A stretch of DNA of 64,000 nt from Terracoccus luteus (GTDB lineage Bacteria; Actinomycetota; Actinomycetes; Actinomycetales; Dermatophilaceae): NCBI RefSeq assembly GCF_003635045.1, contig NZ_RBXT01000001.1:2604001-2668000 (forward strand), read 5' to 3'. A model generated the notes under the pieces. It did no database searches. It was not told the origin of the DNA and saw nothing but the letters and a program-made list of their open reading frames with translations. Of the stretch, positions 3,076 to 50,550 are shown in pieces (the first letter of the stretch is position 1; every line of letters begins with the position of its first letter). The translations under genes were made by a program, and so were the position numbers.

Positions 3076-3097
3076 GGATGCCGGCCGGCCGGCATCC
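3076..3097. repeat. 22-bp perfect palindrome built from GGATGCCGG
   Basis: Between hemL and the DinB-like gene lies a perfect 22-bp palindrome made from GGATGCCGG, a central GGCC overlap and CCGGCATCC. It uses the same 9-mer that recurs across the whole window. It falls 21 bp after the hemL stop in the direction of transcription, so it could form a hairpin in the hemL 3' end. There is no T-tract, so a terminator role is uncertain. Confidence 0.6.
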
Positions 3098-35209: not shown

Positions 35210-35384
35210 CGCCACGGCCCGATTTCGGACACTGCGATCCGTAGCCGCCCTCCCCTTCTTCGCCACGGCCCGATTTAGGACACCGGGATCAGGAAACGAT
35301 GTCCGCTCCGTCGCCACGGCCCGATTCCGGACACCCCGACCCCGAGACCACGCCCCCTCTTCGCCACGGCCCGATTGTGGACAC
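35210..35384 (+). repeat. Left array: four 23-bp repeats at about 51-bp spacing
   Basis: This 353-bp gap (35151-35503) has no gene but holds four copies of a 23-bp unit, CGCCACGGCCCGAT followed by three variable bases and GGACAC. They start at 35210, 35261, 35312 and 35362, so the period is 51, 51 and 50 bp. The 27-28 bp between copies is not conserved. The same unit occurs inverted in a second array on the other side of the nuclease gene. Read on the minus strand each copy encodes V-x-x-x-GPWR or a frame-shifted equivalent. Confidence 0.9.
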
Positions 35385-35503
35385 CACCCGCATCGCCCAA
35401 CGAGCGCCGGATGCCGGGTAGCCCGCGCACGCGGAACGACGCGCGTCGCGGCCCTGTGCACAACCTCCGCGGACGCCGGCCGACATCGGCCACGCTGCTG
35501 AGC

Positions 35504-36430
35504 ATGTCCAGCCCGACCGTGCTCGCGCCGTTCCGCCTGTGCGACGTCGACGGCGGCCCGTCCGTGCTGCGTTCGATGCGCCGACGTCATCGCATGCTCT
35601 TCCAGGGCGTCTACGTCGACCGGACCGTCGCCCTCACGACCGAGCTGCTCGCCCGGGCGGCCCTGCTGGCCTCGGAACCGGACAGCTACCTCTCGCACCA
35701 CACGGCAGCGCGGCTCTGGGGCGCGGTGGTACCGGACAGCCCGGACGTCCACGTGACCACCCCGGGGCTACGGTCCAAGAAGCACGGCATCGCTGCCCAC
35801 CGGGTCAAGGCCGGCCAGCGCGTCGTCACCTGGAAAGGGCTACGCGTGACGGCGCCCGGCCAGACCTTTCTCGACCTTGCGCACCGGCTGGGCCTCGTCG
35901 ACCTCGTCGTGCTCGGCGACTCGCTCGTCCGAGCCGGGCGAGTGACGGTCGACGAGCTGGTCGAGCTCACGGCTGGGCGGTGCGGGCCGTACTCCACCAG
36001 CGCTCGCAGGGCGGCCCTGCTCGTGCGCAAGGGCGTGGACTCGCCGATGGAGACGCGTCTGCGGCTGCTCATCGTCCTGGCCGGTCTGCCCGAGCCCACG
36101 GTGGACCACCGCATCCACACTCGGGACGGCGTCCTGCTCTACCGCTTCGACCTGTACTACGCAGCGGCACGCCACATCATCGAGTACGACGGCAAGCAGC
36201 ACGAGAAGGACAGACAGCGTCGGTCGGACATCCTGCGCGACGAGCAGTTCGATGCGTGGCGGCTGCGCAAGGTCGTGACGGTGGCCGACGACATCTACGG
36301 CGTGCCGGGTCAGACGCTGTCGCGCATCTGTCGGGCCATGCGCGAGCAAGGAATGACCGTGTCCACGTTGTCCGACGAGTGGCGCCGCCACTTCCCGAGC
36401 CGAGGCGACGACGTGTCCAACCCCGGGTGA
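35504..36430 (+). CDS. AbiEi-like / DUF559 protein with PD-(D/E)xK nuclease-type C-terminus
   Basis: A 308-residue protein of the family annotated as type IV toxin-antitoxin AbiEi-antitoxin-domain / DUF559 protein. Residues 1-90 form a winged-helix-like region with SHHTAARLWGAVVPDSPDVHVTT; residues 200-285 are a Vsr-like nuclease domain with the catalytic pattern YRFDLYY... then IIEYDGKQHEKD, giving the Asp and E-x-D-G-K expected of the fold. DUF559 proteins have no proven role. It is bracketed by inverted arrays of a 23-bp repeat and its codon use is slightly less GC-biased than its neighbours. Start ATG 35504 gives the domain start; no strong ribosome site is seen. Confidence 0.78.
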   Translation: MSSPTVLAPFRLCDVDGGPSVLRSMRRRHRMLFQGVYVDRTVALTTELLARAALLASEPDSYLSHHTAARLWGAVVPDSPDVHVTTPGLRSKKHGIAAHRVKAGQRVVTWKGLRVTAPGQTFLDLAHRLGLVDLVVLGDSLVRAGRVTVDELVELTAGRCGPYSTSARRAALLVRKGVDSPMETRLRLLIVLAGLPEPTVDHRIHTRDGVLLYRFDLYYAAARHIIEYDGKQHEKDRQRRSDILRDEQFDAWRLRKVVTVADDIYGVPGQTLSRICRAMREQGMTVSTLSDEWRRHFPSRGDDVSNPG

Positions 36431-36591
36431 CGGGGGCTGCCGCCTTCCTTCGCTTCTCACCGGACGCCGCGCGATTTCCGTCAGTCCTCGTCTCACAGCG
36501 CGCCGCACCCCGGTTTCGGATGAGCGCGGCGAGCGCCGACGGATTCGTCGGACCCTGGCGTAGGCATCGACGGAGGTCCTGGCGCGAGGTC

Positions 36592-36767
36592 GTGTCCCAT
36601 ATCGGGCCACGGCGCGGAAGTGGACGGTGCGGGCGGGGGAGGGTGTCCGTTATCGGGCCACGGCGCGGTCACGGACAGTGCCGGCAGGAGAACCTGTCCG
36701 TTCTCGAGCCACGGCGCGGTCACGGACGGTGCCGGCAGGAGAACCTGTCCGTTATCGGGCCGCGGCG
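36592..36767 (-). repeat. Right array: four inverted 23-bp repeats at exactly 51-bp spacing
   Basis: Four copies, starting at 36592, 36643, 36694 and 36745, are the inverted form of the left array unit, reading GTGTCCGTTATCGGGCC then ACGGCG in the best copy. Spacing is exactly 51 bp. From copy 2 on, the 28 bases between copies are also nearly identical (GCGGTCACGGAC...GCAGGAGAAC), unlike the left array. A degenerate fifth copy may lie near 36548. The rest of the 605-bp gap (36431-37035) shows no gene and ends in the clpC promoter region. Confidence 0.9.
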
Positions 36768-50338: not shown

Positions 50339-50540
50339 CGTCGAAAGGCCAAATAGGGTTCGTCGAAAGGCCAGCTCGAGGTCGTCGGAAGGCCAGTTCT
50401 GGTCGGGGGCGGCGTCGGGAAGTGGCCACTCGACGGTGGAGGACGACGACCCAGCGTCTCGAACTGGCCACTCGACGGTGTGGGTTGTCGGGCGGCGTCG
50501 GGAAGTGGCCTTTCGACGGTGTCTATTTGGCCTCTCGACG
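50339..50540. repeat. Inverted array of a 13-bp repeat between convergent genes
   Basis: The 236-bp gap between the PPOX gene and mutY has no gene. It carries CGTCGAAAGGCCA-like units: three direct copies (50339, 50361, 50383) and four inverted copies (50423, 50465, 50506, 50528). Spacings are 22, 22, 40, 42, 41 and 22 bp, close to multiples of 21 bp, that is two turns of the helix. The direct half faces the inverted half, so the whole could fold into a cruciform or serve as a phased binding platform. Confidence 0.85.
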
Positions 50541-50550
50541 GGGGGCGAGG

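Follow-up and report, generated by a model that had tools for sequence, protein, structure and literature searches.

In many actinobacteria, a gene for a predicted DNA-binding nuclease was found to be bracketed by a short repeat that goes with that gene alone and is scattered around its genome, an arrangement resembling a DNA-cutting protein that has spread its own landing sites. The finding originated from a 64,000-nucleotide stretch of the Terracoccus luteus genome (the window; positions 2604001-2668000 of a single contig of 4,023,595 bp), in which a gene at 35504-36430 (+), encoding a protein of 308 aa, is flanked by two repeat arrays. Homologues of this gene are common, being encoded by 127 of 149 genomes of the family (host included), whilst each lineage's copy is flanked by a different repeat. 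The type of repeat follows the N-terminal half of the protein, which has a predicted AbiEi antitoxin fold, and not the C-terminal half, whose predicted fold is like those of the homing endonuclease I-Bth0305I and Vsr.

The arrangement described in the original prediction, four copies of a 23-bp repeat to the left of a DUF559/AbiEi-like nuclease gene and four inverted copies to its right with a period of 51 bp, was confirmed. Four exact copies were present on the left at 35210-35232, 35261-35283, 35312-35334 and 35362-35384 (all +; steps of 51, 51 and 50), the first of these comprising the core GCCACGGC plus the arm CCGATNNNGGACA. On the minus strand, three right copies, starting at 36592 (36592-36614), 36643 and 36745 (36745-36767), matched the 23-mer with 2 mismatches, whilst dinucleotide shuffles of the window gave 0.03 matches on average and none of 100 reached 7. 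The fourth right copy, at about 36694, exceeded 3 mismatches with this pattern but was found at 2 mismatches with a relaxed one. The right copies at 36643-36677 and 36694-36728 (both -) carry arms on both sides of the core, the former as an imperfect palindrome of about 34 bp and the latter in degenerate form. Core-to-core steps on the right were 51, 51 and 51. As had also been described, the left spacers differ, and the last two right spacers are identical over 17 nt.

Three corrections were nonetheless required. First, the unit is larger than 23 bp, consisting of an 8-bp palindromic core, GCCRYGGC, with a 13-nt arm on each side, of either type A (CCGATNNNGGACA) or type B (about KGGRAAARRKGCA). 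Second, the family is genome-wide, with 55 hits in the host at up to 1 mismatch against 0 for the reversed pattern, and 96 against 17 at up to 3 mismatches. Third, the suggestion that the 51-bp period reflects in-frame peptide repeats was not supported, since steps of 50, 51 and 52 occur and 84 of 104 sites are intergenic in DNA that is 83% coding, as judged with our own crude gene finder. These 104 sites, counted within the stretches of the host genome that were retrieved, form 33 clusters. Of 71 core-to-core steps of up to 130 bp, 56 are 51 or 52, 3 are 50 or 53, 6 are 38-41, 2 are 29 and 4 are 104-106, steps that differ by about one helical turn, though the shorter classes are few. Arrays with the same core but arm type B (53 hits at up to 2 mismatches, 0 in the control) occur for instance at 1841196-1841666, 3239453-3239577 and 3921169-3921280 of the host genome, and are perhaps a relic of an earlier specificity.

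The host motif never exceeded 2 hits in any of 421 other genomes searched, these being 148 others of the family (19 with any hit) and 296 others of the order (35 with any hit), two overlapping sets which contained no other genome of the host's genus. Searches for the exact tandem pattern in collections of genome contigs and viral contigs, from which records near the host may have been left out, returned 0 hits in both, and a repeat family shared with other bacteria or phages was rejected. In 8 relatives the gene lies, as in the host, directly upstream of clpC, and in 5 of these the deaminase gene upstream was also found. Each of these genes has short GC-rich palindromic repeats in its flanks, on both sides in most (two loci, L097 and L101, show them clearly only on the left), with sequences that differ from those of the host. 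The flanks of homologue loci outside L102 to L111 showed the same for more distant homologues. The idea of one universal repeat that marks DUF559 genes was therefore rejected.

To quantify the association, 84,980 species genomes were searched with an alignment of 28 homologues, which gave 424 relatives; the best 80 of these were kept, and 77 named loci had enough flank for analysis. The best local similarity of the left and right 400 bp had a median of 25.5, with 65 of 77 loci reaching the 95% level (16.0) and 55 of 77 the 99% level (19.0) of 5251 same-geometry controls from the same contigs, such that 12 of 77 fall below the 95% level. When left and right flanks were swapped between loci (1925 pairs), 66 and 57 of 77 loci reached the respective levels. 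These controls contain outliers, one of 55.5 in the geometric control and one of 126 in the swap control. Against 97 other genes with at least 100 bp of intergenic DNA on each side, 1 of 97 reached a score of 19 (Mann-Whitney p = 3.7e-19). Inverted bracketing is not general, as among the 59 named loci with a left/right score of at least 17.5 the repeats were direct in 34 and inverted in 25. One strongly flanked homologue (L158; left/right score 74) is of actinobacterial type yet lies in a record titled Acidobacteria bacterium, which is possibly mis-binned.

The 51/52-bp period recurs although the repeat sequences differ. Self-match offsets of 51 and 52 bp occurred in 43 and 36 of 154 flanks, and 51 or 52 was the best offset in 59; bins 48-51 and 52-55 held 0.325 and 0.286 hits per flank against 0.002 and 0.009 per control segment (n=454). 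Copies of a locus's motif more than 1.5 kb from the gene in the same contig piece were found for 8 of 71 loci, against 0 of 213 trials in other loci.

Dispersal was examined further in whole genomes. The repeat of one locus (L119) has 43 hits in its own genome, at about a dozen places and in 51/52-bp steps, with the densest array beside the DUF559 gene, and 0 hits in 24 other genomes, four of them of the same genus. The Serinicoccus repeat has 6-23 hits in 6 of 10 genomes and 0 in 4, and is there mostly a 64-bp inverted pair. In the host, two more, distant, DUF559/AbiEi-like homologues (E-values of 2e-17 and 0.017) are flanked by two other dispersed families, with 58 hits against 0 in the control and 21 hits against 1. 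The layouts of these differ (22-bp tandems and inverted pairs; inverted pairs at a 49-bp offset), hence the 51/52-bp array is not the only format. The first of these families (CGTCGARAGGCCAANTAGA), which flanks the gene at 2519708 of the host genome, also forms an array within the window at 50339-50541, which is not part of the locus described above but of the same phenomenon.

Comparison of proteins and repeats suggested that specificity lies in the N-terminal half. From 110 loci, 22 duplicates and one short protein were dropped; of the remaining 87 proteins, 79 have a detectable repeat by a lenient criterion, leaving 8 without. Amongst 3081 pairs, those with an N-half (residues 1-178) identity of at least 0.65 shared the repeat type in 19 of 19 cases, compared with 1 of 15 at 0.60-0.65, 18 of 210 at 0.50-0.60 and 13 of 2837 below 0.50. 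Of pairs with a C-half identity of at least 0.75, 14 of 14 shared the repeat when the N-half was at least 0.65 identical and 1 of 24 when it was not. These pairs are not independent, as several come from one genus, and whole-set rank correlations of N-half or C-half identity with repeat similarity were weak and alike (0.100 and 0.104; partial 0.077 and 0.082), which is a result against a simple linear reading; since most pairs are far below the range in which repeats are shared, we rely on the binned and cross-classified counts. The clearest single case is a pair of Terrabacter alleles (loci L130 and L133), in which DNA identity is 0.92-0.98 over most of the upstream gene, 0.35-0.57 over the left repeats and the first 300 bp of the gene, 0.95-0.98 over most of the nuclease half, 0.29-0.57 to the right, and then 0.96-1.00. 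At the protein level the nuclease halves are 0.97 identical and the N-halves 0.59, and the repeats are unrelated, though L133 has no recognised right-hand repeat.

Pfam searches matched MTES_1575 in 72 and DUF559 in 54 of 78 members, the window protein itself scoring 17.6 bits for DUF559, below the cut-off of 20.6. PADLOC AbiEi models matched the N-half in 77 of 78 members, whilst Pfam AbiEi_1 and AbiEi_4 matched only 6 and 2 of 78. An AlphaFold2 model (mean pLDDT 93.9) was structurally similar, for residues 178-285, to the I-Bth0305I catalytic domain (3r3p; Z 10.9, rmsd 2.5, 95 residues), the NGO0050 endonuclease-like protein (Z 10.4) and Vsr (1cw0; Z 8.6, rmsd 2.4, 98 residues), and for residues 1-175 to AbiEi of Streptococcus agalactiae (6y8q; Z 9.1, rmsd 5.2, 168 residues). 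Foldseek alone gave no PDB match with E <= 0.001 (I-Bth0305I prob 0.97, but E 0.35), and PDB sequence hits were weak. Residues E183, E227 and G230 are invariant, and D216, D229, H233 and D242 at least 90% conserved, in 78 members, as expected for an active nuclease, though the assignment of catalytic residues is our inference.

Evidence of turnover came from Serinicoccus, in which the gene is intact at one place in four genomes, truncated between intact repeats in a fifth (G118; locus L256, 2120-2850), and gone from a sixth (G079; locus L272, about 2400-2550), leaving a scrambled repeat. Copy number does not simply follow the gene, with 14, 6, 21 and 23 hits where it is intact, and 7 and 6 where it is truncated or lost. 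Most repeat loci are shared between Serinicoccus species, so spread is slow at best. At the one orthologous site with presence and absence (that of locus L254), the repeat is present in genomes G423 and G422, a different, unassigned repeat family (GCACCGGACGYGT...) occupies the site in G144 and G079 (loci L274 and L275), and G118, G046 and G126 have only a short gap; clean insertion edges were sought at this site and not found, indicating gain or turnover without such edges. Within host arrays, adjacent spacers average 0.69 identity (n=29; up to 1.0), but 6 of 29 are below 0.55, hence tandem duplication alone does not explain all arrays.

The interpretation offered in the original prediction, that the arrangement recalls REP elements with RAYT transposases or an undescribed selfish or defence element, was partly supported. 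The resemblance to REP/RAYT holds in outline, as the association of gene and repeat extends across genera and is not coincidence, association by chance being rejected by the geometric, swap and gene controls. Two outcomes had been named in advance as pointing to coincidence: most host copies do lie far from any homologue of the gene, whereas the gene without repeats is rare, as in the 8 of 87 proteins above. We favour, with a probability of roughly 0.55, a REP/RAYT-like partnership made of unrelated parts, in which the AbiEi-type half would bind the palindromic repeat and the Vsr/I-Bth0305I-like half would nick or cut DNA at or near bound repeats. In this view, protein units on neighbouring cores about five helical turns apart would set the 51/52-bp spacing, and repair of the breaks would duplicate or copy repeat units, giving arrays next to the gene and scattered copies in intergenic DNA. 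AbiEi proteins bind 23-bp inverted repeats (PMC7319586) and I-Bth0305I dimerises on a target of nearly 60 bp (PMC3943268), such that a fusion of the two would bind palindromic sites and could act across about five helical turns, which fits the spacing. Our computations establish the association of gene and repeat, the private repeat types, their dispersal in the genomes searched, the spacing, the tracking of repeat type by the N-half and, by prediction, the two folds; binding, cleavage and the multiplication of repeats through cleavage are inferred. A more far-reaching and tentative reading, which is not excluded, is that of a selfish or domesticated nuclease that writes its own binding sites into the genome with a 51/52-bp molecular ruler and changes specificity by allelic replacement of its DNA-binding half together with the flanking repeats, as a second, independently evolved answer to the REP/RAYT lifestyle that is widespread in actinobacteria.

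In both the present case and that of REP/REPIN elements with RAYT (TnpA-REP) genes, a usually single gene is flanked by copies of its own palindromic repeat, the repeat is dispersed in intergenic DNA, gene and repeat diverge together, and different genes in one genome have different repeats (RAYT features from PMC2817692 and PMC3733652). However, the enzyme is not a HUH tyrosine transposase, with no such family among the Pfam matches of 78 members and a predicted AbiEi plus Vsr-like fold, the arrays have a 51/52-bp period, and the order is often direct instead of inverted. A GTAG tag was not seen in the host's main family, whilst its second family begins with CGTC, these being the only families inspected for such tags. 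Relative to AbiE type IV toxin-antitoxin systems (AbiEi antitoxin, Rv2827c), the N-half fold, the sequence models and repeats of about 23 bp next to the gene (PMC7319586) are shared, but there is no AbiEii toxin gene beside the window gene, a nuclease half is fused on, and the repeats lie on both sides and are dispersed genome-wide. Relative to the EDxHD homing endonuclease I-Bth0305I and to Vsr, the predicted C-half fold is shared, but the gene is free-standing with an AbiEi half, is linked to dispersed repeats, and has not been shown to sit in an intron or to cut one long target. The gene lies between two host genes at a conserved place. CRISPR arrays likewise have short repeats at an even period with spacers that sometimes differ, but the present repeats are palindromic-core sites in dozens of places and both orientations, adjacent spacers are often near-identical, and the neighbours of the gene are a deaminase and clpC.

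Dispersed palindromic repeats in bacteria are usually explained by RAYT transposases, and some REP families (CGTC) have no known enzyme (PMC3733652). Full-text literature searches, restricted to open-access papers and thus not excluding an earlier description elsewhere, found no account of the present arrangement; the few papers naming DUF559 were, from their titles and the beginnings of their abstracts, not concerned with repeats, and none paired AbiEi with DUF559. A gene family of a quite different make-up that owns private repeats would give a second mechanism, a candidate enzyme for orphan repeats in actinobacteria, and a natural library of DNA-binding specificities, since more than 70 protein-repeat pairs are readable from sequence, making the specificity code of the AbiEi domain directly testable. 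The constant spacing under changing sequence is an unexplained physical constraint that is amenable to testing in vitro.

The main rival, which is less likely but remains possible, is a regulator with arrayed operators, in which the protein is an AbiEi-type autorepressor, the arrays next to the gene are operators, the dispersed arrays make up a regulon or a chromosome-structuring network, and the nuclease half is vestigial or acts elsewhere. In its favour are the predicted AbiEi fold, the binding by AbiEi proteins of 23-bp inverted repeats upstream of their own gene (PMC7319586), the same length as the unit first described, the even core spacing, which suits cooperative binding, and the stability of most loci between Serinicoccus species. 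However, repeats also lie downstream of the gene, and of 33 host clusters 13 lie between convergent genes, 15 between co-directional and 5 between divergent ones (crude gene finder), which does not favour promoters; moreover, repeat sequences differ between related genera and the nuclease residues are conserved. An allele-switching or homing drive, in which N-half and flanking repeats are replaced together by recombination, the nuclease attacks chromosomes that carry another allele's sites and the repeats guide repair, appears unlikely. The Terrabacter alleles and the closeness of the predicted nuclease fold to a homing endonuclease are consistent with it, yet dispersed arrays at dozens of other host places are not needed for homing, and L133 lacks a recognised right-hand repeat. 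A defence or self-recognition role, in which chromosomal arrays hold the nuclease in check and foreign DNA releases it, is more doubtful still, as beyond the PADLOC matches it has no direct support, and no AbiEii toxin or other partner lies beside the window gene, the next gene being clpC here and in 8 relatives. Passive accumulation of ordinary intergenic repeats around DUF559 genes in repeat-prone DNA, with which the distance of most host copies from any homologue agrees, is strongly disfavoured by the swap and gene controls, the private repeat of each gene (three in one genome) and the tracking by the N-half.

A further short word was found to be overrepresented in the window. The 9-mer GGATGCCGG/CCGGCATCC occurs 36 times, for instance at 3076, 36795, 45878, 50120 and 62219, whereas a first-order Markov model gave 1.75 on average (largest of 20 runs, 4). 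Of these occurrences, 14 of 36 are intergenic and 5 form inverted pairs under 80 bp apart. A Humibacillus locus (L129) is also rich in this word, whilst Serinicoccus, Knoellia and others are rich in GGTATGCCG, and it resembles an uptake- or terminator-type word.
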